From Desulfonatronovibrio magnus (lineage in GTDB: Bacteria; Desulfobacterota; Desulfovibrionia; Desulfovibrionales; Desulfonatronovibrionaceae): a stretch of DNA of 64,000 nucleotides. The notes under the pieces were generated by a model, which saw only the letters and a program-made list of their open reading frames with translations, did no database searches and had not been told where the DNA came from. A program made the position numbers and the translations under genes. This document shows, piece after piece, positions 13,588 through 41,171 of the stretch. The stretch spans positions 62,001 through 126,000 of the forward strand of contig NZ_JYNP01000005.1 in NCBI RefSeq assembly GCF_000934755.1, in the 5' to 3' direction. How positions within the stretch are numbered: the stretch's first letter is position 1; each line of letters begins with the position of its first letter.

Positions 13588-14316
13588 ATGCTTGAAGAAT
13601 ATCATGGGCTGGATATGCAGATTTTTCTGGACAATGATCACCTGTCCAGAAAAATTATTCACCGTCTTCAGTCCGGCCAGAATATTGATCCCAGGCTGAT
13701 AACTGAATACAGGTTTCTGGAAGAGTTCTACGACAACTGGTGCTCTCTGTTTTATTTTCTAGGGTATCGTCTGGAGAGATTTTCCAGGGGGGAAGTTTTT
13801 TACTACTTGAGCCACCATTCTTCTCAGGTTCGAGTCAGTTCTTTACGCAGGGGCGCATCTTTTCTTGGCCTTTTTTTATGCAGTCACTTTTTTTCATCAG
13901 GCATTGAGGGCAAGGATGAGGTTCAGGCCCTTGAACTTATGAGCAGGCTGGAGAACAGTTTTGATTTCAATCAGCTGATCAAAGTTTTTAATCCCCAGCA
14001 GTCCAAAGCATCCCGAAAAAAGCAGCACAGCACCAGGCAGACTGAAAAGCTAAGAGGGTGGATACTGACCAATCTCAGGGAACTGCACAAGTTCAGATTT
14101 ATTGAGCTTTCTCCATCCGTCAATGCCCAGGTGGAAAACCTCATGATTATCAGGCTGCCTGGCCTGGCCCGCTTCTGGGAACCAGCCAAACGCAGCCTTG
14201 ACCTTGAATATGATGGCAGAGATGACCTGGCTTCAGCCATTAACAGTATCTGGTCCAGAATAGACTGGAACGAATCACAAGGCGAAAATGAAGCACAGGA
14301 TGAAAATGAGACCTGA
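13588..14316 (+). CDS. jetB: MukE/MksE-like protein, JetB of a Wadjet system
   Basis: A 242-residue protein resembling MukE. The stretch FLEEFYDNW ... GYRLERFSRGEVFYYLSHHS (about 47-78) lines up with the MukE region [23 protein letters not shown]. The second winged helix includes EKLRGWILTNLRELHKFRFIEL (about 152-173), comparable to the EKVRSSLNRLRRLG segment of MukE. KITE proteins of this kind bind the kleisin and touch DNA. The C-terminus is an acidic tail (SQGENEAQDENET). It overlaps the start of jetC by 29 bases, so the two are probably translated together. No strong Shine-Dalgarno is seen; GGAAAGA lies seven bases before the ATG. Confidence 0.85.
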   Translation: MLEEYHGLDMQIFLDNDHLSRKIIHRLQSGQNIDPRLITEYRFLEEFYDNWCSLFYFLGYRLERFSRGEVFYYLSHHSSQVRVSSLRRGASFLGLFLCSHFFSSGIEGKDEVQALELMSRLENSFDFNQLIKVFNPQQSKASRKKQHSTRQTEKLRGWILTNLRELHKFRFIELSPSVNAQVENLMIIRLPGLARFWEPAKRSLDLEYDGRDDLASAINSIWSRIDWNESQGENEAQDENET

Positions 14317-17300
14317 TATACCTGAGGTATTCATACCTGACGATATAATAGCAGACGGGCTGATTCTGGTGGGATACCAGCTTTTTCCGGCTGCTTACAT
14401 TGCCCTGCATCCCAGAATGACAGTTCTTTCAGGCAACAATGCCGTGGGCAAGACCACTATTCTGGATGCTGTGCAGACCATTCTCATCTGTCACCAGCAA
14501 TATATCAACCTGAATGTGGCTACCGGACAGTTTGACCGTTCCCTGTCCGGACAGCTGAGCGGACGGGTGGGCTGGGCAGTCTTGTCCATTGCAGGGCACG
14601 CTGAAATTAAAGCCATAGGCGTACGTCTGCATGCCAGGGCAACAGCAGAGGGTCTTGATTTGACTCCTTTCACCATGACCAGCATGGAGCCCTTTCCTGA
14701 TCTTTTTCTCAACAAAGAAAAATCCCAGATTGTTCCTGATTTTCAAAACTTGAAAAAAAATGTGCTTAAGCAGGATATACAGGCCCAGGTCAACGATTTT
14801 GCCAGTGTGGATGAATATCACCGCCTGTTGTTTTCCCAGGGGCTCTTGCCTGTAACCATGGACAGGCAGGGAAAAAAGAAATTCGCCACACTCTGGAGTC
14901 AGGTTACCCGTCCCAAGTTAGACAGACTGGGTCTCTTTCTAAAGGAAATGCTCTGTCCTGATCCATCCCAGGGAGTCAAGTTCTCTGATGTGGAAAAATT
15001 GATGCGGGATCGCCGCAGTATCAGCAGTCAGATCAAGTCCATTGAAATATTTCGCAAAACCAGACTTGAACTGGAAGAGCAGCGCAAAACCCTTGACAGC
15101 TGCCGCTATAAATATCTTTCTACTGAACTTGGCATGCTTCAGGCCAGAGCCAGGCTTTTTCACTCCAAAATTGAAAGAGAAAAAAAGCGTGAGCAGGAAA
15201 CTGTTGAAGCTCTGAAACAAATCGAGTCCAGACTGGAAAATTCATGGACTGAAAAAAAAGATATTAATCAGGAGCGCGACAAGTATCTGAGCAGACAGAC
15301 TGAGCTTTCGCGTCAGAAAAGACATTTTGAAGAATATCAGAATCTTATTCGTGAAGAAAAGCAGTTGGGCCTGGAAATGTCTAAGATAACAGATGGGTTA
15401 TCAGCAGCTGAAAAATTCAGGCAGGACACAGCAAGTCAGGTTCTTGAAATTAAGGAGCAGCATGGCACAGAGCAGGCCGCTTTCATGGCCCTGCAGGAAA
15501 AGCTTAAATTTCTTCTCGCTGACAAGGAAAAGTATGAGGCTTTTGTCCGGAAACTGGAACAATCCTTGGAAAAAACAGGACGGCCCATAAAGACTTGGCA
15601 GGAACTCAATGAAGCCTGGCTGGCAAGTGAGAAAGAAAAAAACCGCCTGGACAGTCTGCCTGAGCTTAAGGTCAGGCTTGAGGAAATCCGCAGGCGGGTT
15701 GAACTTCGGGAGCAGGCCGTGGAACTGGCTGAGTGGTTTAAACGGAGTTATCCTGAAACTACCCCTTTTTTCTCAGGCAACAGGCAGGATTTTATTTCAT
15801 TGATCCGTCAATGGGAGGACATTGATTTTGAGTCAGGGATAACGAAAAAAGGAGCTGAGCTGGATAAGCTTTTAACCCTCATTGATGGCCTGGAAAAAGG
15901 ACGTCCAGGTATTTCTGATACTGTGGCCAGGCATGTAGATGCAGGCAGGCTGGCTTTAGTTGCTGATAAATATGAGCACCTGGATCTGGAAAGGGCTTCT
16001 CAGGTCCAGGCCGGGCTTGGTCCATATGCCCGCGGGGTTGTGGTTCAAAATCTTGAAGAGGTTGCTCAGCTTGACCTTGGTGATGAAGAGTTCATGCTCC
16101 TGAGCCGGGATGTTGATCCTGACAAGTTGAGACTTGTGCAAACAAGCAAGGGAACTGTGTCCGGCATGGGCGGGCTTTACTGGTTTACTCCTGATGAACC
16201 ACTCTGGCTGGGAGCCCAGGCCAGGGCCAGAGAGTTGTCTAAGTTAAACGCCAGAAGAGAAATCCTGGAAGAAGAGCTTGAGTCTTTGAACAATGAGCGC
16301 AGACAAAATGCCCAGCGCATCAGTAAAGCCAGGGAACTGGCAGGGTTCTGGGCAGGTCTGGAGGACAAGTCATGTGTTGATGAGCTGACTGCTCTGGATG
16401 AGGAGATCAAAAGCCTTGAAAGCCAGGGATGGCGCATCAGGGATACTTATCAATACCTGAACTCACTGGTCCGTAAACGTGATCTGTTTGATCTGCACAC
16501 TGCCCCAAAAATTTATGCCAGGGCGCACAAGCAGGCCCAGGAAGCTCAAAAGTCTCTGGAAAAGCTTAAAGGCAAAATGGCTCGGCTTGAAAAAGAGCAG
16601 GTCAGGGCTGATTCAGATCTCAAGAGGCTGCAGGAGCAGCAGAAGTCTAAGGATAGAAGGCTGACCGAAATTCAGGTAACTGTCCAGAATCTCATCAGAG
16701 AAGAGCCTGTAGAGGTCCTTGAGGGAAAGATAGATTTTTCTCAGGCAGACGCCCTTGCTGGTCGGATCAAAGCCTTTGATGAGCAATTGCGTCGTATTGA
16801 AGAATCAAGAGACAGATCTCATCAGGAAAAAGGTCGTAAGAATGAGCTTTTGCGCCTGATTCAAAAAGAGCTTGAAGGATTTGAAAAAGAACTGAGAGTC
16901 TGTCAAAGTACTGAAGAAAAACGTCTAACTGAGTGGCAGGATTTTTATCCGGATATAAACCCTGAATACAGGCAGGGTAATTTTACCAGGGATGATTCCA
17001 CCCTTTTGAAATCTCAGTGGCTGCAGGCAGAAAAGTTTCTTGAGAAGATCATCAACGATGTCAGCGCAGAGCATTCTTTGCATCTGCCCCATGATGTTTC
17101 TTCAGAAACCAAAGTTGATTTAATCCTGAACAATATTATTCCGCAAGCCGTGGACCTGGACCGGGTTGAAGAACAGTTTCAAAGGCTCAAGGCAGAACTT
17201 AAGGAAATTGAAGCCAGAATCAGAAGCTATGTCCAGGATATCAAGCGCAGGGTGGATCAGGATATTTCCAATCTCAAGAGAAGGTTGGACAAGGTTAACA

Positions 17301-17872
17301 CCATTCTGGCGGATATCAGGTTTGGGCGCATCAGTCAGGTCAGGGTTGAGCTTCAGTATCTGCCATCATATGCAGGCCTGAAGAGCCTGCAGGGAGATCG
17401 GCTCACATTGCTTGATTTTGATAGCAAGACCACTCTGGAAGAGTTTGTGCAGGAGCTTATCAGGAATATTTTCAGGCATGGTCAGACCAGGATAAGTGAA
17501 GATCAGATAGCTGACTACCGGACATATATTGAGATGACCTGGTCCATTACTGATCTTGAGGGCAATGTCAGGCAAAAGGGATTTTCCGGTGGAGAAACCC
17601 TTGGCATCAACCTGGCCATCTGCCTTGGCCTGCTCTTTCATTGGGGTGGGGAGGCAGGCCATGCCAGGCGAGGACTTTTGATTATGGCCTTAGATGAGGC
17701 TGAACGCTTAGATGAACAGGCAGTCAATACTGTCCGGGAGCTTCTGGACCGGGTGGAATGTCAGCTTCTGGTTGCTCTGCCCAGAACCATGCGTGTACCA
17801 AAAACCCTGTGCCATATGCTGACCCCTCTTGCTCAGGGCGTGACTCATATATCAGTTTATCATAAAGGATGA
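14288..17872 (+). CDS. jetC: MukB/MksB-like SMC ATPase, JetC of a Wadjet system
   Basis: A 1194-residue SMC-type protein. The N-terminal half-head has Walker A GNNAVGKTTILDAVQTIL (about residues 49-66) followed by the MukB-like VDEYHRLLFSQGLL. Coiled coil runs from about 260 to 500. A MukB-type hinge (about 515-650) contains GLGPYARGVVVQNLEEVAQL and DEPLWLGAQARARELSK. A second coil (650-1060) leads to the C-terminal half-head: signature FSGGETLGINLAICLGLLFH (about 1098) and Walker B LIMALDEAERLD (about 1131). It is shorter than MukB (about 1480) and near MksB/JetC length. It should extrude DNA loops with JetA/JetB and present circular DNA to the JetD nuclease. ATG codons at 14288, 14300 and 14306 are all possible starts; AGGA at 14296 favours the last. 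The stop is followed after nine bases by the sequence that now also begins jetD 7.5 kb away. Confidence 0.9.
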   Translation: MKHRMKMRPDIPEVFIPDDIIADGLILVGYQLFPAAYIALHPRMTVLSGNNAVGKTTILDAVQTILICHQQYINLNVATGQFDRSLSGQLSGRVGWAVLSIAGHAEIKAIGVRLHARATAEGLDLTPFTMTSMEPFPDLFLNKEKSQIVPDFQNLKKNVLKQDIQAQVNDFASVDEYHRLLFSQGLLPVTMDRQGKKKFATLWSQVTRPKLDRLGLFLKEMLCPDPSQGVKFSDVEKLMRDRRSISSQIKSIEIFRKTRLELEEQRKTLDSCRYKYLSTELGMLQARARLFHSKIEREKKREQETVEALKQIESRLENSWTEKKDINQERDKYLSRQTELSRQKRHFEEYQNLIREEKQLGLEMSKITDGLSAAEKFRQDTASQVLEIKEQHGTEQAAFMALQEKLKFLLADKEKYEAFVRKLEQSLEKTGRPIKTWQELNEAWLASEKEKNRLDSLPELKVRLEEIRRRVELREQAVELAEWFKRSYPETTPFFSGNRQDFISLIRQWEDIDFESGITKKGAELDKLLTLIDGLEKGRPGISDTVARHVDAGRLALVADKYEHLDLERASQVQAGLGPYARGVVVQNLEEVAQLDLGDEEFMLLSRDVDPDKLRLVQTSKGTVSGMGGLYWFTPDEPLWLGAQARARELSKLNARREILEEELESLNNERRQNAQRISKARELAGFWAGLEDKSCVDELTALDEEIKSLESQGWRIRDTYQYLNSLVRKRDLFDLHTAPKIYARAHKQAQEAQKSLEKLKGKMARLEKEQVRADSDLKRLQEQQKSKDRRLTEIQVTVQNLIREEPVEVLEGKIDFSQADALAGRIKAFDEQLRRIEESRDRSHQEKGRKNELLRLIQKELEGFEKELRVCQSTEEKRLTEWQDFYPDINPEYRQGNFTRDDSTLLKSQWLQAEKFLEKIINDVSAEHSLHLPHDVSSETKVDLILNNIIPQAVDLDRVEEQFQRLKAELKEIEARIRSYVQDIKRRVDQDISNLKRRLDKVNTILADIRFGRISQVRVELQYLPSYAGLKSLQGDRLTLLDFDSKTTLEEFVQELIRNIFRHGQTRISEDQIADYRTYIEMTWSITDLEGNVRQKGFSGGETLGINLAICLGLLFHWGGEAGHARRGLLIMALDEAERLDEQAVNTVRELLDRVECQLLVALPRTMRVPKTLCHMLTPLAQGVTHISVYHKG

Positions 17873-17881
17873 TTTCCGGTG

Positions 17882-17890
17882 ATGGATGAT
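17882..17890. other. Left 9-bp target-site duplication (ATGGATGAT)
   Basis: ATGGATGAT lies directly before the left end of E1 copy A. The identical nine bases lie directly after the right end of E1 copy D, at 25397-25405, where they are the first three codons of jetD. This is what insertion of the DNA in between would leave. Before insertion, jetD would have begun nine bases after the jetC stop codon. Confidence 0.8.
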
Positions 17891-18076
17891 GAAAGCATTA
17901 CGCGTTTTTTGAAAACCAGGATGGGGACAGTCCCGAAGCCAGGGACAGTCCCCCCTCCGGGCTGTAAGCCTCCGGGCAGGAAGCCGTGCCATGCCGTAGT
18001 TTATAGCTTTTTACACAAAGATAGCCTTAACACACCCTATTCATATTTTGTTTTCAAAAAAACTCGTAATGCTCCC
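17891..18076. repeat. E1 element, copy A
   Basis: Left end GAAAGCATTACGCGTTTT and right end AAACTCGTAATGCTCCC are inverted repeats. The interior has GGGGACAGTCCCGAAGCC, AGGGACAGTCCCC and GCCTCCGGGCAGGAAGCCG. It is nearly identical to copy C (24559-24740). The short open frame across it is the stub MDD of jetD run into the repeat. Confidence 0.85.
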
Positions 18077-18116
18077 ACCAGCATGTTGGTTTGAAATTTC
18101 CGCTAAGCGCCAATTG

Positions 18117-18360
18117 GATGCACATGCAAAAAGTCGGGAAATGAATAATTCAGGAATAAAACAGCTCCATAAACTCTTTGTTTTGACTGGCTCCTGACTC
18201 CTGCCTGCCCGGTTAAACAAATCCGAAGGATTTCCTGCAAAGCAGGGTTTAACAGGGCCTGCCCCGTGAAACAGCCCGCAGGGCTCCCTGTCGAAGACAG
18301 GGGTTTCACTGGGGACACCTGACTCCTGCGACTGTAAAAATGAGTTTTTGCAGTCGCATC
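18117..18360. repeat. E2 element, copy 2 (with extra internal segment)
   Basis: Ends GATGCACATGCAAAAAGTC and TTTTTGCAGTCGCATC are inverted. Flanks CAATTG and TAATTG share five of six bases. It is longer than copy 3 because of an inserted stretch with GCCTGCCCGGTTAAAC and a GGGTTTCACTGGGGAC part. Its right end is a hairpin directly after the 387-residue gene and could end that transcript. Confidence 0.75.
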
Positions 18361-19523
18361 TAATTGTGCTTCAGCCGTTCAGTCAATCTTCTAAACTCGT
18401 CGCGAATCTCCTTATTGTGAAATGTTTCTGCAGCTGGCACATGAAGATTTGATAATGTTTCAAATGTGTTCAATCCATCTCGGATAAGGGATGCAACATC
18501 AGAGCTTAGTCGTACAGTATTGTAAGTATTTACAGCTACCTGCATCTCCTGTGAACTTACTGATAGAGCTACCTTGACTTGATCCATATGATTGCTGACT
18601 ACTTGGTGATATAATTCAACAACTTGTTTTGTAAGCTCATTTGCTTTGATGTTATTTTCAAGAATTGCTTTATTGCCCCCTGCTCGGATTAATTGTCTTG
18701 CGTCTTTTATATTCTTGTCAGCTTCCCTTGAGAACTCTTTAAGGCTTGGCAACACCTCACTATTTACTTTTTCAATAAAAGTATTTTGCATTTGCACAAC
18801 CAATTTGTGAAGCATTACAAGCATGCCATAGTATCGCCTGGCATATGAAAGGCTCTCCCCGCTTTCCTGGGTTAAGTTGGCCAATTGAAGTGTAACAACT
18901 TCAATATTTGAAAAGACAATGCTCATTGACAAGACATCATCACCGATAACTGAAGAAAGCCAGAATTCAACCTGTTCGGGATTAAGTTCCACTCCCATAT
19001 CCGACAGTAATTCAGACATTTCAGTTTTGATGTTATCCATTTCCATTTCATGTTCTTGAATGTATTGCTGGTAGGCTTCAATTAAAATATCGTAATCACC
19101 GCGTGTTTTTGCCGTCCATTGACGCATGGTCTGGGTTGGAACATATCTTCTTAATGATGGTTCACCTGCTTGGGCTGACAATCTGCGCTCTCTCAAATCA
19201 GCAATACGATCTTGGTCCGCAATGACTGCATCTTCAAGCTTTTGATAATTCTGGCGGAGTTCAAGCAATCTCGGATTTTCAAGATAACCTATAGCTTTTT
19301 CAATATGGTCGTTAATGCGTTTTTCTACTCTTGACCTGTCAGTTCTAAACCAAGCACTTTCACGGACTTCATCCAATCGGTCAAACTCAACGGCAGCATC
19401 ACTAAGAGTGCTTATGACACTGGGCATATCAAATTTAAACTCTGTGTCACCGTAAACATATTCAGTGTTCAAGCTGAACAAAATTATAAACATCAGGAAG
19501 AATTTGAATCTTGGCAACCTCAT
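18360..19523 (-). CDS. Secreted coiled-coil protein of unknown function
   Basis: A 387-residue protein with a signal peptide (MRLPRFKFFLMFIILFSLNTEYVYG, residues 1-25, cleavage near YG-DTEF). The remainder is almost all charged, helical and heptad-like (for example LRQNYQKLEDAVIADQDRIADLRERR, quoted here as two parts about 88-113). This suggests a long coiled coil in the periplasm. It has no cysteine pairs or recognisable enzyme motif. The nearest idea from composition is a chemotaxis-receptor-like or phage-shock-like rod, but I do not recognise a family. It is isolated inside the jetC/jetD insertion. Its TAG stop codon is completed by the first base of repeat E2, which abuts it, so the original C-terminus may have been longer. 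Confidence 0.7.
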   Translation of the reverse strand: MRLPRFKFFLMFIILFSLNTEYVYGDTEFKFDMPSVISTLSDAAVEFDRLDEVRESAWFRTDRSRVEKRINDHIEKAIGYLENPRLLELRQNYQKLEDAVIADQDRIADLRERRLSAQAGEPSLRRYVPTQTMRQWTAKTRGDYDILIEAYQQYIQEHEMEMDNIKTEMSELLSDMGVELNPEQVEFWLSSVIGDDVLSMSIVFSNIEVVTLQLANLTQESGESLSYARRYYGMLVMLHKLVVQMQNTFIEKVNSEVLPSLKEFSREADKNIKDARQLIRAGGNKAILENNIKANELTKQVVELYHQVVSNHMDQVKVALSVSSQEMQVAVNTYNTVRLSSDVASLIRDGLNTFETLSNLHVPAAETFHNKEIRDEFRRLTERLKHN

Positions 19524-19899
19524 ATTCGGTATCCCCTGGAAGCAGTTGAAAAAGTCATCATTTATAGTCCATCTGTTACTTCAGATAAAGAAAATTAAAT
19601 ATTGAAATATGCAATAAGTAAACGGCTTTTTTGTTTTTATCTTTTCACTTACCCCATTACTTACCCCTATTTTTTCCAACAGCCAAAAAGCAATATTTTT
19701 TTGCTGCCCACAGATTATTGACTTTTCGCCAAAGGCCGGATAGGAAAATAAAAATATCATATATTTTGAAGACTGGCAAATCAAGGCTTGACAATTTAGG
19801 CATTTTTGGACTTCTATCAGAACATGACTATATTCAATAAGTACGCAGCAAAAACAACTCAAGGGCCTGCTGGCCCATAAATATGGCTGAGATCAAGAA
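19524..19899. other. Gene-free A+T-rich stretch
   Basis: No gene is supported here. TTGACA at 19788 could be a -35 box for the DUF4160 gene, but there is no convincing -10 box at normal spacing. Confidence 0.4.
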
Positions 19900-20169
19900 A
19901 TGCCTGTTTTATCAATATTTTTCGGCATCATTATAAGGATGAGACATGATGACCATCCCCCTCCACACATACACGCTGCTTATCAGGGATTTGAGGCCTT
20001 GATTGAAATCAAAACAGGCACCATAACCGATGGATACCTTCCGAATAAAGCAGCAAAAATTGTTAAAGAATGGTGTCTTGTACATCAGGCTGAACTGCTT
20101 GAAAACTGGGAAAGGGCACAGCGTTTTGAACCCTTGGAACGTATACAGGGAGCTGACTTCGATGATTAA
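19900..20169 (+). CDS. DUF4160 protein
   Basis: An 89-residue protein with the DUF4160 hallmark RMRHDDHPPPHIHAAYQG (about 13-30) and EIKTGTITDGYLPNKAAKIVKEW (about 37-59, given for position). The family is usually coded next to a DUF2442 partner, as here, and such pairs are often listed as candidate toxin-antitoxin modules; biochemical function is not known to me. The stop overlaps the ATG of the next gene by eight bases, so they form one operon. The pair is cargo of the insertion between jetC and jetD, where an addiction-like module would help keep the DNA in place. Confidence 0.85.
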   Translation: MPVLSIFFGIIIRMRHDDHPPPHIHAAYQGFEALIEIKTGTITDGYLPNKAAKIVKEWCLVHQAELLENWERAQRFEPLERIQGADFDD

Positions 20170-20410
20170 AATTACTCAGGCCAAATATCTTGGCGACTAC
20201 CAGGTTGAGTTGTCATTTTCTGATGGAATGACCGGAATTTTTGACGGAGAATCTCTTTTAAAAAGAAGCGGTCCTTTACTGAAACCATTAAATGATGAGC
20301 TCTTTTTTCAACGTTTTTTTGTAGACTTTGGAGCTTTGAGCTGGCCTCATGGGCTGGAATTGTCGCCAGCCAAACTCTATCAGAGCTGCAATCTGCACAA
20401 GGCCGCTTAG
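20162..20410 (+). CDS. DUF2442 protein
   Basis: An 82-residue protein, MIKITQAKYLGDYQVELSF and then GIFDGESLL, ending with SWPHGLELSPAKLY (about 61-74), the typical DUF2442 layout. The frame is open further upstream, but the ATG at 20162 overlaps the end of the DUF4160 gene and fits the family start. DUF2442 proteins are small, possibly DNA-binding, partners of DUF4160. The assignment as antitoxin-like is inference from this pairing. Confidence 0.85.
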   Translation: MIKITQAKYLGDYQVELSFSDGMTGIFDGESLLKRSGPLLKPLNDELFFQRFFVDFGALSWPHGLELSPAKLYQSCNLHKAA

Positions 20411-20442
20411 TACCATTCTACCTTATACAAAGCCTGAACCAT

Positions 20443-20580
20443 TTAAGCCAGAGGCAACGTAAAGCTGACTGCAGTTCCCTGGCCTGGCTCACTTTCAATC
20501 CAGATCTTTCCGCCATACTGTTCAATGAACTGTTTGCACAGAATCAAACCCAGCCCGGTGACCAGGAAAAATTTCTGGAA
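20443..20580 (-). pseudogene. Histidine-kinase C-terminal fragment
   Basis: The minus strand encodes TGLGLILCKQFIEQYGGK followed by IWIESEPGQGTAVSFTLPLA and a stop. This is the G2-box end of a HATPase_c domain. Everything upstream is lost. It meets, back to back, a response-regulator fragment on the plus strand. Confidence 0.75.
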
Positions 20581-20676
20581 CCCGGAATGGATGATTATAT
20601 AGGAAAACCTGTTAATCTGGAGGACTTTCATAGGGTATTCAGCAAGTTCGTTGGAGAGGAGAAAATACAGGCCTGA
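20579..20676 (+). pseudogene. Response-regulator receiver C-terminal fragment
   Basis: The plus strand reads GMDDYIGKPVNLEDFHRVF then a stop, the conserved lysine (KP) end of a receiver domain. Together with the opposite-strand kinase end it looks like a rearranged piece of a hybrid kinase. The following 20677-20810 contains a short minus-strand open stretch (MTEVVSTRIDRSKLLLSVF, from 20782) that I cannot assign. Confidence 0.7.
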
Positions 20677-20816
20677 TTTTCGACAATCCGGCTATGGACA
20701 TGGCATAGTCCAGTTCAATTGTTTTGAAGACTGACAAAAGAAGTTTGGATCGGTCAATTCGTGTGCTAACTACTTCGGTCATATCATTTGCTCCTGACAT
20801 TTGCATACCGAATATG

Positions 20817-20850
20817 TTGACAAAATATATCTAAGGAGTATATTTTATAT
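20817..20850 (+). promoter_or_regulatory. Promoter and likely operator of brnT-brnA
   Basis: TTGACA (20817-20822), a 16-base spacer and TATATT (20839-20844) form a good sigma-70 promoter. AAAATATAT and GTATATTTT make an inverted repeat across the spacer and -10 box, a likely site for autorepression by the antitoxin. The ATG is only 10 bases beyond the -10 box, so the transcript may be leaderless. Confidence 0.6.
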
Positions 20851-20853
20851 ACC

Positions 20854-21114
20854 ATGAGCTTTGAATATGACCCCAAAAAATCAGATATCAACAAAGATAA
20901 GCATGGAATTAATTTTGTTGAAGCTCAAGAGCTTTGGAATGATCCTGATTTATTTGAAATCCCAGCTAAAACAACAGATGAACCGAGATCCTTGATCATC
21001 GGCAAAATTGGCGAAAAACACTGGGCCGGGATTATCACCTATCGACTTAATAATATACGATTGATCTCAGTAAGGCGTGCTAGAAATGAGGAGGTGGAGC
21101 TTTATGAAAGCTAA
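20854..21114 (+). CDS. brnT: BrnT-family ribonuclease toxin
   Basis: An 86-residue protein with the BrnT layout: FEYDPKKSDINKDKHGINF, EAQELWNDPD, a central RSLIIGKIGEKHWAGIITYR and the end LISVRRARNEEVELYE. Known BrnT toxins are RelE-fold ribonucleases that stop translation and are bound by BrnA. The catalytic-type residues (histidine in KHGI, the arginine pair in RRAR) are present, so it is probably active. The downstream antitoxin gene begins before this gene ends. It is cargo of the jetC/jetD insertion. Confidence 0.88.
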   Translation: MSFEYDPKKSDINKDKHGINFVEAQELWNDPDLFEIPAKTTDEPRSLIIGKIGEKHWAGIITYRLNNIRLISVRRARNEEVELYES

Positions 21115-21334
21115 AGACTTAGAGAAAACATTTGACGAAGGGAAAAGCATTTTAAATCAGTTTGACCTCTCTAAAGCCAGACGTCCTAATCAAGAGCAAA
21201 AAAGAGTTAATGTCGATTTCCCTCTATGGATGATTCAGTCATTAGATAAAGAAGCTAAACGACTTGGTGTCCCCCGGCAATCGATTATTAAGGTGTGGCT
21301 AGCAGAGAGATTACATAAATCAGCCGCTTTATAG
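21104..21334 (+). CDS. brnA: BrnA-like antitoxin (ribbon-helix-helix)
   Basis: A 76-residue protein. Residues 1-35 would contact the toxin, and the end forms a ribbon-helix-helix DNA-binding part: KRVNVDFPLWMIQSLDKEAK, then LGVPRQSIIKVWLAERL. I chose the ATG at 21104, which overlaps the brnT stop and has GAGGTGGAG before it, over an earlier in-frame ATG at 21077. The promoter for both genes lies before brnT and carries an inverted repeat this protein could bind. Confidence 0.85.
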   Translation: MKAKDLEKTFDEGKSILNQFDLSKARRPNQEQKRVNVDFPLWMIQSLDKEAKRLGVPRQSIIKVWLAERLHKSAAL

Positions 21335-21475
21335 TTACCTATGTGCCCGACCGTGCATACTAGAACATTTGCGTGCGCCAGACCGGAAAGGCTGGGCCAC
21401 CACAGCAATGGTCCGGTCTGGGGCTCCTCTTATCCACAGTTATCCTCGTTTTAAGCCTGCCTTCCAGGTTGGTAA

Positions 21476-21657
21476 GGGAGCATTACGCGTTTCTGACAAC
21501 CAGAAAGGGGACAGTCCCGAAGCCAGGGACAGTCCCCCTCCGGGCTGTAAGCCTCCGGGCAGGAAGCCGTGCCAAGCCATGATAAACCGCTTTTAACCCC
21601 AAAAAAGCTGTGACATACTCATCATTTTTTCAGTTGTCAGAAACGCGTAATGCTCCC
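21476..21657. repeat. E1 element, copy B
   Basis: GGGAGCATTACGCGTTTCTG and CAGAAACGCGTAATGCTCCC are perfect inverted ends. The interior carries GGGGACAGTCCCGAAGCC, GGGACAGTCCCCC and the GCCTCCGGGCAGGAAGCCG segment. No target duplication is visible. The next 300 bases to 21956 hold no gene. Confidence 0.9.
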
Positions 21658-21956
21658 CATTTTACAGTTAAGTCACTGAACAGTAACGGCATATTGGTAT
21701 TTTGAACATCCCTAAGACTAAACCATTATGCTCCACTTAAAATTTTCATTTGCGGTTGATATTTGCACGCCCAATCATTATAAAAGCGAAAATCGCCAAA
21801 AATGAACAACATGCATGAGCTTCGAAAATGACATCTTTGCTGAGCAAATCAATGGCATGAAAGGCATGATTCTAATGAAATGCAAACTCAAAGCTTAACA
21901 CTGCTACTCAGCGCAAAAAAAACTGTGGAGCAACTAAACCCAAGAAAGGAGCAGAC

Positions 21957-22343
21957 ATGAGCGACAGGTTTACGACTCACGGAGCTTTCAGCTGGTGCGA
22001 ACTGCTGACCACCAATGTCGAAGGTGCGAAAGAATTTTACAGCGATTTGCTGGGCTGGACATTGGAAGACATGACCACCGGGGGAATGAAATACACTGTG
22101 GTCAAAGCCGGAGATGAGGAAATTGCCGGGATTATGGACATGCCTCCGCAGGTGCCCGAGGGAACGCCGCCGCACTGGGGCACATACATCACCGTAAAAG
22201 ATGTGGACGCCGTGGCGCAAAATGCCGGACAGCTTGGCGGGACCATACTGGTCCCACCCACAGACATCCCTGGCGTCGGACGTTTCAGCGTCCTGCAGGA
22301 TCCGCAAGGGGCGTTTTTCAGCGTCATCACATACAAGACATAA
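21957..22343 (+). CDS. VOC-superfamily protein (glyoxalase/bleomycin-resistance fold)
   Basis: A 128-residue protein, one VOC unit of two beta-alpha-beta-beta-beta modules. It begins with GAFSWCELLTTNVEGAKEFY (about 9-28), then LLGWTLEDM, PHWGTYITVKDVD and ends DPQGAFFSVI. This matches the CFP30B-like group rather than glyoxalase I. The metal ligands normal for enzymes of the fold are only partly evident, so the substrate is unknown. AAAGGAG is seven bases before the ATG. It stands alone within the insertion. Confidence 0.85.
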   Translation: MSDRFTTHGAFSWCELLTTNVEGAKEFYSDLLGWTLEDMTTGGMKYTVVKAGDEEIAGIMDMPPQVPEGTPPHWGTYITVKDVDAVAQNAGQLGGTILVPPTDIPGVGRFSVLQDPQGAFFSVITYKT

Positions 22344-22839
22344 TCAAAGCCGCAGGCAACAGGAAGAGACTGCCTGGCTTCCGGTGTATCTGGAAAAGCC
22401 GCTGTCGGTTCACCCTGAGAAGTATACGGCCTGCATCAACTTGTGCTTCACGACCCGAGTGGTCTGTCATAAACTGTAATGGCATCAAAAGGTGCGAGCA
22501 CCTCGAAGAGGATTTAACTGGGTTCTTAGTCCTGCAAGAAATATATCTTTCTTGAATTTCATGTATATCTGTGTCAACCTGCCTGCCTTGTGCAACAGAC
22601 GAGGTCCCTCTGCGAAGCTGTTTTCACTGGGTGTGATCTGCCTGCCCCGTTGCATTTCTCTCATTTAACCGGGGTAAATCTTCGAACGGGCGGTTAAGGT
22701 TTCTTTTTTTTGGGTTGCTGGAGTAGCCCGCGTTAGAATACCGATAACCCTTAGTGCCCACAAAAAGGCCTGTGGAGGTTAACTTGAAGCTCATTGCATC
22801 ACTATGGTGGTATATCAGTATTTTTCTAATCCCTTACCT
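22344..22839. other. Gene-free stretch
   Basis: No supported gene. A few short open frames here have no family signature. Confidence 0.4.
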
Positions 22840-22965
22840 GATGCACATGCAAAAAGTCGGGAAATGAATAATTCAGGAATAAATCAGCTCCATAAACTCT
22901 TTGTTTTTACTGGCTCCTGACACCTGACTCCTGCGACTGTAAAAATGAGTTTTTGCAGTCGCATC
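22840..22965. repeat. E2 element, copy 3 (cleanest, 126 bp)
   Basis: Ends GATGCACATGCAAAAAGTC and TTTTTGCAGTCGCATC are inverted repeats. The element is flanked on both sides by TTACCT, a perfect 6-bp target duplication (22834-22839 and 22966-22971). Confidence 0.85.
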
Positions 22966-23037
22966 TTACCTGTTACTTTCTGTACTTTGGTAATGTCCTT
23001 GTCCCCTTTATAACTGACCCCAGTTGAGGAAACTTAA

Positions 23038-23859
23038 GTGAAAGACATTCTGCAAGACGTATCTTCTTCTTCGTTAGTGACCGCTATTGAAAGCAATCTG
23101 TTTGCATTTTTGCCATTGTTCGAGCTCTGCCCTCAAGCTGAAATCCATGATGATCCACAGCTGCTGTGGTCTCTTACTGATATTCCTTTTCCGCTGTTCA
23201 ACAGCATCATGCGCGCAAGAATAGCTCCAGATGATGTAAATGCCGCTATCGAAGCAGCCATGACCCGTGGCAGGGAAAAAAATGTACCCATACTGTGGTG
23301 GACCGGACCGACCACTAAACCATCTGACTTAGGGATGTATCTAAATATGCATGGCTTTACCCGTGAAGATGATGCACCCGGGATGGCGCTGAACTTGCGA
23401 TCCCTTAACACAGACTTTCCTGTACCTGACGGTTTAACTTTTGAGAAAGTCAAGGATGCCGAAAGACTTAAGCAGTGGCATTACCCTTTTGCATCGGGAT
23501 TCGGCATGCCAGATTTTGCGGTGAATGCTCTGATAGATTTATTCGAGCAGATCAGCTTTGTTAATCAGCTGCCCTTGCTCCACTACACGGGCTGGCTGGA
23601 AGGAAAGCCAGTGGCAGCGGGATCGGTTTATCTGGCAGCAGGCGTGGCCGGCATTTATAATGTAGTCACCGTTCCAGAGGCTCGACGCAAAGGTATAGGC
23701 ACACTTATCACTCTGGCACTTTTACGAGAGGCTCAGATGGCGGGTTACCGGATCAGCATCCTGCATACCTCCAAAATGGGGCTTAGTGTCTATCGTCAAC
23801 TTGGATTTCAGGAGTATTGCTCTATTGGTCAGTATCTCTGGTCACCTGAACAAGCCTGA
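23038..23859 (+). CDS. GNAT-family N-acetyltransferase
   Basis: A 273-residue protein whose C-terminal half is a GNAT domain. GIYNVVTVPEARRKGIGTLI (about 201-220) holds the acetyl-CoA pyrophosphate loop (RRKGIG), followed by LLREAQMAGYRISILHTSKMG and the end YRQLGFQEYCSIGQYLW. The N-terminal half (WTGPTTKPSDLGMYLNMHGF) looks like a second, degenerate GNAT half, as in other two-domain members. It begins with GTG, with TGAGGAA eight bases before it. The acetyl acceptor is unknown. Confidence 0.85.
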   Translation: MKDILQDVSSSSLVTAIESNLFAFLPLFELCPQAEIHDDPQLLWSLTDIPFPLFNSIMRARIAPDDVNAAIEAAMTRGREKNVPILWWTGPTTKPSDLGMYLNMHGFTREDDAPGMALNLRSLNTDFPVPDGLTFEKVKDAERLKQWHYPFASGFGMPDFAVNALIDLFEQISFVNQLPLLHYTGWLEGKPVAAGSVYLAAGVAGIYNVVTVPEARRKGIGTLITLALLREAQMAGYRISILHTSKMGLSVYRQLGFQEYCSIGQYLWSPEQA

Positions 23860-23908
23860 TCACACAAAAAGGGCTTGCAGATCTTCAGGTTTCTTGATGA
23901 AGGAAAGC

Positions 23909-24395
23909 TTAGGTGAGTGCCGGACTGTCCCAGGTTTCGGCAAAGTACCTCTTCACACTTAGGGTTGCGGGCAAAGCCCGCCTTAATACTGTCTTGTAAT
24001 CAATAACCGCCATTACCCGGCCGTAGGCCAGGGTCGCCAGAATGTCCGCAAAATCGTCCACTTCGGCCAGATCATGGCTGACCATGACCTTAGGCACTCT
24101 TTCCTTCAAAACGTCCATCGCTTTTGTGATTCTGGGCATTTTGCGCTTTTTCATCGAGCCAGCCAAACCGATCAGCTGGCCATATGTCAAAATCCTTGAC
24201 GTAAGGCTTGATATCCAGGACCGGAGTTCCGTCAAGAATATCAACGTTTTCCAGAAACACCTCCCTGCCTTTAATTCCTGTCAGCTTGACTATGGACAGT
24301 CCAATAGAATTGGGACGTTTTGGAGAACGAGTCGCGAAAACCCCGCGTCGTTCAGTGTCCAAAAACCCATTCAAATATATTTTTCCAAAAATCAC
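23909..24395 (-). pseudogene. Broken TsaA/TrmO-type tRNA methyltransferase gene
   Basis: From 24395 the minus strand encodes GVFATRSPKRPNSIGLSIVKL and then DGTPVLDIKPYVKDFD. These are hallmarks of TsaA/TrmO proteins, which methylate t6A37 of tRNA. The usual N-terminal 60 residues are missing. Around 24120-24150 the frame changes, and the second part continues KMPRITKAMDVLKERVPKV to TLSVKRYFAETWD. That extension is found beyond the TsaA domain and I do not recognise it separately. With a lost N-terminus and a frameshift, this is a pseudogene. Confidence 0.7.
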
Positions 24396-24558
24396 ATGAC
24401 TTTCTTAGGCTGTCTTGCAAAGGGTCAGCCGGTATTTCTTGTCAGCGGAAATGGAAGTTGGCAGTGGCGAAACTTTTTCTAATCCGTTTCTTGTTCAATA
24501 AAAAATTAGTGCCGGGGTGCCTGTTTCCACAAGCATGAAATCAAGGATAATTATTAAC

Positions 24559-24740
24559 GGGAGCATTACGAGTTTTTTGAAAATGGATGGGGACAGTCTC
24601 GAAGCCAGGGAAAGTCCCCCTCCGGGCTGTAAGCCTCCGGGCAAGAAGCCGTGCCATGCCGTAGTTTATAGCTTTTTACACAAAGATAGCCTTAACACAC
24701 CCTATTCATATTTTGTTTTCAAAAAACTCGTAATGCTCCC
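24559..24740. repeat. E1 element, copy C
   Basis: Ends GGGAGCATTACGAGTTTT and AAAACTCGTAATGCTCCC are perfect inverted repeats. The interior is almost the same as copy A. The following 24741-24955 contains an open stretch without a start (EAEQEADLMFQVVRRLGWTG) that looks like a protein fragment I cannot place. Confidence 0.9.
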
Positions 24741-24955
24741 GTCTGGAAGCGGAGCAGGAGGCTGATCTGATGTTTCAGGTTGTGCGACGCTTAGGCTGGA
24801 CTGGAAGCCGCGCTATCCTTAAAAGCGCTGAAAAGATACAAATAATCAAAGATTTCAAAGGTCCATTGACAAACCAAAAATGCTGTGTGAACTTGGATGT
24901 TAGCCAAGCGACGTGCAGCTTGTTTGTCCTGTACTAATCACTGACTTTTGTTATC

Positions 24956-25110
24956 ATTACAGCGACACTTTATTTAAGCAGGAAGGGGACTGGCTCTCCC
25001 CGCACTTATTTTTATGGCAGAAAGGCTGCAGAACAATTGCAAAAAATAAGTGCGGGGAGTGCCTGTCCCCGGTGGCCGAAACAATAATTAACTCAAAGTG
25101 TCGTTTTAGG
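24956..25110. repeat. E3 element, copy 2
   Basis: ACAGCGACACTTTATTTAAG pairs with the end ACTCAAAGTGTCGTTTT, and inside CTCCCCGCACTTATTTTT pairs with AAAAAATAAGTGCGGGGAG to form a very stable hairpin. GGGGACTGGCTC and GCCTGTCCCC are shared with copy 1. Confidence 0.8.
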
Positions 25111-25240
25111 TGCTTATTGGAAATTTCAAACCAACATGTTTGGTAACTTCTCAATAACTCCTGGCGATCTTACACTAAGAAAATTCCTGGATTCCGGCTT
25201 TCGCCGGAATGACGAATGAAAACAGGGCGTTGCATTGTGA

Positions 25241-25396
25241 GGGAGCATTACGCGTTTCTGACAACCAGACAGGGGACAGTCCCGAAGCCAGGGACAGTCC
25301 CCGTGCTGATCCGTCATTACTGGGTTTGATCAATCTGCAACTACAACAAACTATAATTCTAATCGAATTGGTTTTCAAAAAACACATAATACTCCC
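25241..25396. repeat. E1 element, copy D (right border of the insertion)
   Basis: Left end GGGAGCATTACGCGTTTC; right end AAAACACATAATACTCCC is more diverged. A short REP (ATTCCGGCTTTCGCCGGAAT, 25192-25211) lies just before it. The right end touches the jetD start codon, so jetD has no ribosome-binding site of its own. Confidence 0.85.
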
Positions 25397-26380
25397 ATGG
25401 ATGATCCTTTGCAGAAATGTCTGGCCTGGACACAGCTTCAAAATCAGGGACGATCGCCTCATCGCAAGGCTTTGGATCCCCTGGTCCAGGCAGGGATTGC
25501 AGAACTTCAGGGCCGGGAAGTTGTGCTCGTGGATCATGAAACCCTGTCTAACATTATTGAATCCCAATGCAGCGCAGTCATTCAGGCCAGGGATGAAGCC
25601 AATGAGCTAATTTCTTCCATGGGCTTAGATGTGAGCATTACATCCAAGCCCATGGAGGCCCTTGCTCTCTTAAGGGAACTCCATAGACGCTCGGCTCATG
25701 AAAAACCATGTCATGTTCAGTCCCTTAGTTCAGCCCTGTTTCAGGATTCCAAGCATATATTGCGCTTTCCGGTTCTCAATAAAATTTATTCCAATTGGTC
25801 TCAAGGCCTTTTTCAGCGTGGTGAATTAAGGGTAAGGTCCTGGTCGGATTTGCATCACAGGCAGGGCTTGAACCTTAAGCATATTACCCGGACTCTGGGT
25901 CAGGCATGCATTCAGGCTGGGAAAGCTTCCAAGACAGAAAATTTTGATTTTTCAGAAATCAGGTTTGTGCTTACTACTGAAAACCTTGCTCCGTTTATGC
26001 AGTTGGAGCTTAAACACGGCCTGCTCATTTTCTGCCAGGGCTATGCCTCAGCTCTGCCCGGGCTTTGGCTGAAAAATCTTCCTCTGCAATGCAAATGGGT
26101 GCATTTTGGTGATTTTGACCCGGACGGGCTGTTTATCTTTGAACAGCTCTTAAAAGCATCCAAAAGAAAAGGACATTTTTTTCCGGATTTGCCTTTTTTG
26201 CAAAGATACAGGGACCGCCTTGCTCCCTGGAATGCTTCCAGAAAGTTTGACCCGGAAAAGTATCAACATGACGACTGCAAAGAGCTTGCCCTTTGGGGAA
26301 AAGAAAACAATGTCTACGCAGAGCAGGAGTGGATAATGGAAATGCTTGGTCCGGACAGGGTTATTGCTGCCATTACCTGA
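25397..26380 (+). CDS. jetD: JetD: TOPRIM-type (DUF2220) nuclease of a Wadjet system
   Basis: A 327-residue protein. The C-terminal half is the DUF2220/TOPRIM fold of JetD/MksG: FVLTTENLAPF (about 191-201) holds the first acidic residue, CQGYASALPGLWL follows, and FGDFDPDGLFIF (about 236-248) is the GDxDxxG metal site. The N-terminal part (about 1-160) would bind DNA and the JetABC core. In known Wadjet systems JetD cuts closed circular DNA that the SMC part has sized by loop extrusion. Motifs are intact, so the nuclease is probably functional if expressed. But the gene is now 7.5 kb from jetC, its ATG lies inside the 9-bp duplication, and directly upstream is the end of repeat E1 with no Shine-Dalgarno. 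Expression may be lost or reduced. Confidence 0.85.
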   Translation: MDDPLQKCLAWTQLQNQGRSPHRKALDPLVQAGIAELQGREVVLVDHETLSNIIESQCSAVIQARDEANELISSMGLDVSITSKPMEALALLRELHRRSAHEKPCHVQSLSSALFQDSKHILRFPVLNKIYSNWSQGLFQRGELRVRSWSDLHHRQGLNLKHITRTLGQACIQAGKASKTENFDFSEIRFVLTTENLAPFMQLELKHGLLIFCQGYASALPGLWLKNLPLQCKWVHFGDFDPDGLFIFEQLLKASKRKGHFFPDLPFLQRYRDRLAPWNASRKFDPEKYQHDDCKELALWGKENNVYAEQEWIMEMLGPDRVIAAIT

Positions 26381-35019: not shown

Positions 35020-36438
35020 ATGGATCTCAGGTTTCTGCCGCATAATACTCATCTGGATTCTCCAGAACAATTCAGCCAATTGGACCCCCATCTGCGCCAA
35101 CTTGGCAAACAGCACCTTATCCACAAATCCCCTCTTCTTGATATCCTGCCCCGCAACAAGCCGGGCATATTCACCTTAAGCGGAGGCCGGCAGATAGGCA
35201 AAACCACCTTGATGAAACAGTGGATGGCAGAGCAACTTTTGCAGGGTACGCCTCCAGAAAATATCCGTTTTGTTACAGGTGAGCTTATTGAAGACCATCA
35301 TGCCTTAGTCAGGCTTTTCAGTGATATGTTGTCCGCCATGCCTGAAGCCGAACACAAATATCTGATTCTGGATGAAGTGACTTATATCCGGGAGTGGGAC
35401 AAGGCAGTTAAATATCTGGCAGATGCAGGGTTATTGGAAAGGGTGGGGCTTTTTTTAACTGGCTCTGATATGACCCTCATCAAAGAGGCACGGATGCGTT
35501 TTCCTGGCAGGCGGGGAAAAGAGAGCAGGGTTGATTTTCATCTTTATCCCCTGAACTTTTTAGAGACTGTCCAGTTGAAAGAAAACTTCAGTTCGTCTGA
35601 TATTGACACCCTTGTCAATGAACAGGCTGAGCCTTCCCTGGATCTGATGGATAGGCTTTTCCGGGAGTTTGAATGTTATCTCATCCACGGAGGTTTTTTA
35701 ACAGCCATGAATGATCTGGAGGAGCATGGGGCTATTTTGCCGGCAACTTATTATACCTACACTGACTGGGTCAGAGGGGATTTTTTGAAGCGCGGTCGCC
35801 GGGAAAATTCATTGCAGGAAATTCTGAGAGCCATTATCAAATCTTATGGCAGTCAGGTAACCTGGAATTCTTTAACCCGGGAAATGAGCATTGAGCATCC
35901 CAAAACCGTGGCCGACCATGTGAGTCTTCTTGAATCTATGGATGTGGTCTTTGTGCTGCATGCTCTTATTGAAGACAAGCTTGCTGCAGCCCCAAAAAAA
36001 GCCCGCAAGGTGTTTTTTTGCGATCCGTTCATTTTCCACTGCGCCATGTCCTGGCTTTGGCCCTGTTCTAATCCTTATCAGGATCAAAGTTTGCCGTTAC
36101 TTGCTGATTCACGAAAAGCAGGCCTGCTGGTTGAGTCTTGCGCCGCATCTTTATATGGCCGAAACTATCCTGTTTACTATATAAAAGCCAAGGGTGAGGT
36201 AGATATAGCCTATGTTCATGACGGACGATTCTGGCCTGTGGAAGTTAAGTGGACTTCTCAGCTTCGCCCTGGAGAGCTCAAGCAGATTGTCAAGTATCCC
36301 AACGGGCTTATTCTCAACAAGTCCAGACAAAGGGGCTCGATACAAAACATCCCTACCAGTCCTCTGCCTCTGGAACTTTTACGACTTGGGACTCATAGTC
36401 AGAACGGGAGCATTACGCGTTTTTTGAAAACATATTGA
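35020..36438 (+). CDS. AAA_14/DUF4143 ATPase with C-terminal nuclease-like domain
   Basis: A protein of 472 residues. The P-loop GGRQIGKTTLMKQW lies at about 53-66 and Walker B HKYLILDEVTYIREWDKA at about 113-130. DFHLYPLNFLE and a winged-helix-like part (TWNSLTREMSIEHPKTVADH) follow, and near the end comes VYYIKAKGEVDIAYVHDG with WPVEVKW, the PD-(D/E)XK-like core. I take ATG 35020 over TTG 35014 because homologous DNA at 29.6 kb changes only this codon. The last residues (NGSITRFLKTY) and the stop are encoded by repeat E1 copy E, so the original end was a few codons different. A damaged duplicate lies 5.4 kb upstream. Function unknown; related proteins are common in mobile regions. Confidence 0.85.
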   Translation: MDLRFLPHNTHLDSPEQFSQLDPHLRQLGKQHLIHKSPLLDILPRNKPGIFTLSGGRQIGKTTLMKQWMAEQLLQGTPPENIRFVTGELIEDHHALVRLFSDMLSAMPEAEHKYLILDEVTYIREWDKAVKYLADAGLLERVGLFLTGSDMTLIKEARMRFPGRRGKESRVDFHLYPLNFLETVQLKENFSSSDIDTLVNEQAEPSLDLMDRLFREFECYLIHGGFLTAMNDLEEHGAILPATYYTYTDWVRGDFLKRGRRENSLQEILRAIIKSYGSQVTWNSLTREMSIEHPKTVADHVSLLESMDVVFVLHALIEDKLAAAPKKARKVFFCDPFIFHCAMSWLWPCSNPYQDQSLPLLADSRKAGLLVESCAASLYGRNYPVYYIKAKGEVDIAYVHDGRFWPVEVKWTSQLRPGELKQIVKYPNGLILNKSRQRGSIQNIPTSPLPLELLRLGTHSQNGSITRFLKTY

Positions 36439-36557
36439 ACATGGGTTTGTAACACCTATTGTCTGCGAAACAGGTAATAGTGAACAGCCTGGCAAGGGGA
36501 CTGTCCCTGGCTTCGGGACTGTCCCCAACTACTTTTCAAAAATCGCGTAATGCTCCC
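36406..36557. repeat. E1 element, copy E, with 8-bp target duplication
   Basis: GGGAGCATTACGCGTTTT and AATCGCGTAATGCTCCC are the inverted ends. GTCAGAAC occurs immediately before (36398-36405) and immediately after (36558-36565). The pseudogene copy at 30050 has only one GTCAGGAC at the same point and no element, so insertion is directly shown. It lacks the CTCCGGGCTGTAAGC segment of copies A-C. Confidence 0.92.
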
Positions 36558-41018: not shown

Positions 41019-41171
41019 GGGAGCATTAAGCTTTTCTGAAAAGTTAATTGGGGACAGTCCCGAAGCCAGGAACAGTCCCTGTGCCAGGCCGTCACAATCG
41101 GGTTTTAACCCCAAAAAAGCTATGGCATACAACTCAAACTTAGAGTTTTTTTTGAAACGCGTAATGCTCCT
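41019..41171. repeat. E1 element, copy F, inserted in an E5 end
   Basis: Ends GGGAGCATTAAGCTTTTCTG and TTTGAAACGCGTAATGCTCC. Flanks GCCCGTAAC (41010-41018) and GCTCGTAAC (41172-41180) differ at one base of nine. The right flank runs into CTGTTTAG, the start of an E5 element, so E1 landed at the edge of E5. Confidence 0.8.

Follow-up and report, generated by a model that had tools for sequence, protein, structure and literature searches.

Translocatable units of IS26 are described as integrating beside a resident IS26 (PMC4894685): the resident element serves as a dock, the incoming DNA comes to lie between two direct copies without a new target duplication, and RecA-dependent recombination can suffice when the transposase is inactive. 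For class 1 integrons of Acinetobacter that are flanked by miniature inverted-repeat transposable elements (MITEs), direct MITE copies enclose the cargo, a short target duplication lies outside them, and the routes put forward as possible are transposition or homologous recombination (PMC3934969). In TIMEs and in mosaic non-autonomous transposons, too, unrelated DNA is bounded by miniature elements; the ends of TIMEs are 38 bp long and of the Tn3 family, their duplications measure 5–6 bp, and they are reported to have been shown to mobilise DNA (PMC4133298). A review includes the general statement that MITEs are recombination hotspots (PMC10969869). Here we analyse a 7.5 kb block bounded by copies of a MITE, designated E1, between the jetC-like and jetD-like genes of a Wadjet-like operon in Desulfonatronovibrio magnus. 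The window is the whole stretch of 64,000 nucleotides that was analysed (contig NZ_JYNP01000005.1, positions 62,001 to 126,000). The perfect 9-bp duplication that encloses the block is probably the trace of an earlier insertion of a single E1, rather than of transposition of the block as a unit.

As we read it, the E1 locus resembles the IS26 units in the points just listed, and differs from them in that no transposase open reading frame (ORF) is seen in E1, the dock is only ~150 bp long, and the copies have diverged enough to reveal mixed joints. With the Acinetobacter integrons it shares the cargo between direct MITE copies and the short duplication outside; those MITEs are described as identical, 439 bp long and flanked by a 5 bp duplication (PMC3934969), whereas here the two bounding copies are chimeras and an allele with a single MITE carries the same duplication. 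Miniature elements bounding unrelated DNA are common to this locus and TIMEs, but E1 has other ends and 8–9 bp duplications, and no block transposition is indicated. Beyond the general statement in the review cited above, the present case shows both states of one site. The process is thus of a known kind, and its record is unusually clear. When a block with transposon ends is flanked by a perfect target duplication, this is usually taken to prove that the block itself moved. In this case the cargo most likely arrived after the duplication had been made, because the same site is seen with a single element alone and the bounding copies bear what appear to be scars of recombination.

The 9-bp sequence ATGGATGAT is found on the + strand directly outside E1 copy A on the left (17882-17890) and directly outside E1 copy D on the right (25397-25405), in each case abutting the terminal inverted repeat of the element. 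The left copy follows the jetC stop codon (17872) after nine bases, and the right copy constitutes codons 1–3 of jetD, as the original prediction had stated. Of 61 genomes, that of D. magnus itself among them, 11 yielded JetD matches. The closest is G004, from the same genus, with JetD 91% identical; its contig is letter-identical, on the reverse strand, to PWPY01000240.1 of Desulfonatronovibrio sp. isolate CSSed10_448R1, a metagenome-assembled genome (MAG). The order in G004 is jetC, ATGGATGAT, a single 153-bp E1, ATGGATGAT and jetD, with no cargo, and the operon flanks are 88.6% identical to those of the window on the jetC side (1,920 nt) and 91.5% on the jetD side (1,137 nt). The single E1 with the same duplication is seen directly, and it explains the duplication without the cargo. 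An assembly jump between repeats at the G004 locus is unlikely, because that genome contains no exact GGGAGCATTACGC and, with 8 of 8 candidates scored, the resident element is its one E1 match.

In seven more distant relatives (L033-L038 and L040) the jetC and jetD alignments end 19 to 145 nt apart, and there is therefore no such insert in those operons, in which the aligned part of jetC is 30–54% identical; locus L039 has no jetC match and L041 was left out. The original prediction expected relatives to show an empty site with ATGGATGAT present once. No such E1-free junction was found in close relatives, and G004, the sole close relative with the locus, has the single E1 in its place. Joining the two flanks may restore the ancestral junction, but the nearest relative has E1 in place and an insert is absent only from the more distant operons.

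The block contains four E1 copies on the + strand, all in one orientation: A (17891-18076), B (21476-21657), C (24559-24740) and D (25241-25396). Compared with the G004 element, here referred to as the resident type, copy A has a resident-type left end and a C-type right part, and copy D has a B-type left part and a resident-type right part. A single switch between the G004 E1 and the C-type copy on contig C128 explains all 79 informative sites of copy A, and a single switch between the B-type copy on contig C66 and the G004 E1 explains all 82 informative sites of copy D. Agreement with the G004 element amounts to 30 of 32 columns in the left part of A and 90 of 97 in the right part of D; the right part of A agrees with the copy on C128 in 123 of 125 columns, and the left part of D with the B-type in 30 of 31. 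In the alignment of E1 copies, the altered left end GAAAGC is found in A and G004 only and the right end CATAATACTCCC in D and G004 only. This mixed make-up and the rough positions of the switches are directly observed. Copies B and C are B-type and C-type, respectively, in both parts (38 of 39 sites fit for B and all 41 of 41 for C), and neither has a duplication of its own.

Of the 61 E1 copies, 24 gave a type for both parts; a recognisable core was missing from 10 others, and the scores of the remaining 27 were too low. Only A and D are mixed among these 24, eight of which had served as type references, so that independently of the references 2 of 16 copies are mixed, and these two bound the insert. 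Two other full-length copies, each with its own perfect duplication, combine the left and right parts in the same way as the resident element (contig C42, 4006-4156, and contig C123, 27476-27626), and the resident type is therefore a natural type of E1. We discarded an inner hairpin (CAGCAC/GTGCTG around the G004 core) as proof of the ancestral state, since the intact sibling on C42 has GGAT at that position.

The 61 paired copies, which are those in the stretches of the genome that were examined and include one element (L142) counted twice with alternative right ends, allow 3,660 comparisons between flanks of different copies in the same orientation and 3,660 in the inverted orientation. The left flank of A with the right flank of D is the only perfect 8/9-bp match among these 7,320 comparisons, and five more pairs have one mismatch. 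The same pair was the sole perfect match in 1,892 same-orientation comparisons of a first set of 44 copies. As a word, ATGGATGAT means little, because it occurs 6 times in the window compared to 1.06 expected; its position is what is significant. Between their own flanks, 25 of the 61 copies have a perfect 8/9 bp duplication; a single mismatch is present in a further 12, and the other 24 show more than one. All four copies of the insert belong to the last group, that is, they lack a duplication of their own.

These results lead us to propose that an old insertion of a single E1 made the duplication and that the cargo was added later, inside that E1, by recombination between E1 copies, a history that we consider probable. 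A single E1 would have landed between jetC and jetD in an ancestor common with the G004 lineage, duplicating ATGGATGAT. Donor DNA, consisting either of unrelated genes with E1 sequence on both sides or of a circle with one hybrid E1, would later have undergone recombination with this resident copy, within or close to the 31-bp hairpin core common to E1 copies (GGGGACAGTCCCGAAGCCAGGGACAGTCCCC, an imperfect fold, at 17923-17953 on the + strand in copy A). The inferred switches lie in this core or at most 5 columns to its left. As an outcome, the two pieces of the resident E1 would now form the outer portions of copies A and D, with 7.3 kb between them. A single resident copy at the site and two direct, complementary hybrids after the event, as expected of recombination at a resident repeat, are both found here. 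What we infer from this pattern is the sequence of the events, the agency of homologous recombination, a donor DNA as such, and the arrival of the 7.3 kb in one or in several events.

Several observations weigh against this history. With the C42 sibling as the resident parent, a single switch fits 71 of 74 sites in A and 67 of 70 in D, that is, not all of them, and the cores of both A and D differ from the G004 core (agreement in 26 of 29 and 26 of 28 columns). The scores for inverted-repeat pairing (17 for A-left with D-right, 18 for A with itself and 14 for D with itself) do not separate the models, so that pairing was not a decisive test of the chimeric nature of A and D. No donor was found when the three segments between E1 copies were compared with the D. 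magnus genome and 20 relatives, with the best 14–30 candidates per genome scored. Nor was a reciprocal product detected: no perfect partner duplication for the six inner flanks exists among 171 E1 ends, the nearest being one with one mismatch, for the right flank of B. E1 ends resembling the C-type and the B-type also occur in G006 and G003, so that these types are not confined to the lineage of the window. The lack of duplications at B and C indicates that the interior of the insert has a further history of its own; we rejected this lack as proof of recombination, as the well-paired copies L012, L142 and L147 also have none. One close relative, G004, carries the locus, and this MAG is 77% complete and divided into about 360 contigs.

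The original prediction offered, as one of two routes, the transposition of the 7.5 kb as a composite. A transposase would have moved the block from A to D into the junction, making the 9-bp duplication, and in G004 a recombination of A with D would later have removed the cargo. The block does have E1 ends and a perfect 9-bp duplication of the size seen at single E1 copies, and MITE-flanked blocks with target duplications are described in Acinetobacter (PMC3934969). The G004 element can also be read as the left part of A joined to the right part of D, which fits 76 of 81 sites and counts against the later arrival of the cargo, as the chimera test is to this extent symmetric; four of the five misfits constitute one 4-base gap. 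A composite transposon should show a duplication from its own insertion and two ordinary end copies, whereas here G004 has the duplication around a single E1 and A and D are mixed. Transposition of the block would require A and D to have been mixed beforehand, with the resident-type parts matching on their outer sides, although no other typed copy is mixed. Moreover, the alterations of the outer ends are common to G004, which has just one E1. We therefore regard loss of the cargo in G004 as less likely than its later gain and composite transposition as improbable; given the single E1 with the same duplication in G004 and the complementary chimeras A and D, transposition of the block is not supported. 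A wrong joining of contigs at E1 repeats appears more improbable still. The D. magnus genome is a draft of 134 contigs, E1 is abundant, and all four copies in the insert are without their own duplication, which are points in favour of such an artefact. Two wrong joins would however have to return to the same locus, and scrambled joins should leave partner duplications elsewhere, yet the 61 copies examined yield no further perfect match between flanks of different copies, and the flanks of 37 copies are coherent, with one mismatch or none.

The second route in the original prediction, a circle that recombined into a single earlier E1, agrees with our reading as far as recombination into one resident E1 is concerned; the incoming DNA may have been a circle or a linear piece flanked by E1 copies. 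A circle carrying one hybrid E1 (the left part of D joined to the right part of A) and entering by a single reciprocal crossover is a variant of the proposed history, rather than a rival to it, and a possibility that we consider only tentatively, as somewhat short of an even chance. If the C42 sibling is taken as parent, the switch may lie anywhere in columns 27-62 for A and in columns 31-62 for D, and a single reciprocal crossover needs an overlap of this kind; if G004 is the parent, the intervals (27-29 and 44-62) do not overlap. Two cargo genes at opposite ends of the insert, for a GNAT acetyltransferase and a 387-aa protein, are neighbours in G006, ~400 bp apart and in the order that they would have across the joint of a circle, and of the 119 other genomes searched for each gene G006 is the only one with both (E up to 0.001 for the 387-aa gene and up to 1e-20 for GNAT). 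This permuted order hints at a circle. It is one case, and the divergence of the two genes is unequal (86% and 64% amino acid identity, 87% and 71% DNA identity, for the GNAT and the 387-aa gene, respectively). In addition, the G006 contig with both genes has no reported E1 match, a linear donor between a C-type and a B-type E1 would give the same product, and another repeat lies beside both genes, so that the permuted order may have another cause. This dispersed repeat is located beside the 387-aa gene (18117-18361) and the GNAT gene (22840-22967), near where the similarity to G006 starts in both.

One could further speculate that the 31-bp hairpin is a preferred site of exchange and that E1 copies are portable docks trading cargo at their centre, a notion to which we give very little credence. 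Such exchange would perhaps be aided by a single-strand nuclease of the REP type (RAYT), and one ORF in the D. magnus genome is, we presume, similar to a protein of this type. If the notion were true, cargo would collect in E1 like cassettes in an integron, without transposing.

The operon around the insert is Wadjet-like, with Pfam matches to MksE, MukB and JetD_C and PADLOC matches to JetC1 and JetD1. The components expected of Wadjet, namely a JetC SMC-like ATPase, JetB/MksE and a JetD nuclease in one operon, are all found, with jetD located 7.5 kb from jetC. The jetC-like gene (14288-17872, + strand) encodes a MukB/JetC ATPase (Pfam MukB and SbcC_Walker_B; PADLOC JetC1, 5e-20), and the jetD-like gene (25397-26380, + strand; Pfam JetD_C, PADLOC JetD1) has an intact ORF. 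PADLOC gave no match at the jetB position, and the 456-aa protein at the jetA position was matched by neither Pfam nor PADLOC. Both jetC and jetD appear to be mostly preserved, because the ratio of nonsynonymous to synonymous substitution rates (dN/dS) relative to G004 is 0.141 for jetC (613 codons compared) and 0.149 for jetD; as G004 is without the cargo, these ratios are uninformative on selection after its arrival. The case illustrates how an abundant repeat of ~150 bp can make room for foreign genes in an operon, here one for defence against plasmids, whose own reading frames stay open. The left ATGGATGAT, which is the old jetD start, begins a 70-codon frame through copy A (17882-18094), and the equivalent start in G004 yields 32 codons.

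The cargo of ~7.3 kb is a patchwork comprising BrnT and its partner, DUF4160, VOC, GNAT, the 387-aa protein and a TrmO fragment. From the left, it contains the gene for the 387-aa protein without Pfam match (18360-19523, - strand), a DUF4160 gene with an overlapping downstream ORF (19900-20410, +), a gene for the BrnT toxin with a small overlapping downstream ORF (20854-21334, +), genes for a glyoxalase/VOC-fold protein recognised by Pfam (21957-22343, +) and the GNAT acetyltransferase (23038-23859, +), and a fragment of a TrmO_N domain covering profile positions 56-116 of 116 (Pfam; 24090-24395, -). The 387-aa protein has its nearest relatives in G006 (64%) and G045 (54%), which are the only ones above 50% among the 119 other genomes (E up to 0.001), with five more at 24–29%. 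Relatives of the GNAT protein (E up to 1e-20) were detected only in G006, G033 and G049, again of 119 other genomes. At the DNA level, 19823-20563, with the DUF4160 segment, is 96% identical to G009, with a 322-nt part 97% identical to G004, and 20686-21261, in the BrnT region, is 97% identical to G003. Some cargo pieces are thus closer to G003, G004 and G009 (96–97%) than the jetC and jetD sides (88.6% and 91.5%) are to G004, which would fit a late arrival of the cargo. The insert had no match in phages and matched three plasmid records in the BrnT region only, at 67–71% identity.

A second MITE family, E6, is represented by its left 98 bp (25143-25240, +), which end exactly at the left end of copy D. 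E6 (loci L186-L193, L195 and L196) is 155–156 bp long with ends GTAACTTCTCAATAACTCC, is multicopy in G006, and is present in the D. magnus genome. A search of the window that allowed up to 8 substitutions did not detect the missing right part of E6. In the D. magnus genome, no E1 adjoining that right part was found at up to 3 mismatches, a further point against recombination with a resident E1. A half E6 at this position is expected under composite transposition too; it fits both histories and was not used to choose between them. Inverted 30-bp repeats (90% complementary) lie inside the insert near both its ends, at 18082-18111 and 25109-25138.

E1 is a multicopy MITE in that it is short, has terminal inverted repeats (GGGAGCATTACG and CGTAATGCTCCC at its ends) and contains no visible transposase ORF. 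Its length is mostly 150–186 bp, ranging from 113 to 198 bp among the aligned copies. The D. magnus genome yields 63 BLAST matches to E1, some of which are just inverted-repeat arms; E1 end matches with up to 2 mismatches number 93 and 98 (191), compared with 0 for the reversed-pattern control. Among the 61 paired copies, those with a duplication have slightly better inverted-repeat pairing (median 21 compared to 18, p = 0.048). The exact 13-base E1 end is present in 4 of 25 relatives. No autonomous partner of E1 emerged when the spacing of ends was viewed in 20 stretches of the D. magnus genome and 15 loci of relatives, with ORFs listed for one locus and no search for transposase families made. 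A one-sided E1 end in G009 (L106) has no ORF longer than 150 aa, and its flank has no second copy beside an E1 end.

Another E1 cluster is located on contig C114 (L073, 5379-11022), where two copies are paired, both without their own duplication. ORFs near it resemble what we take to be Rpn proteins and a RAYT transposase. Two more E1 copies within the window have duplications of their own, at 36406-36557 (8/8) and 41019-41171 (8/9).

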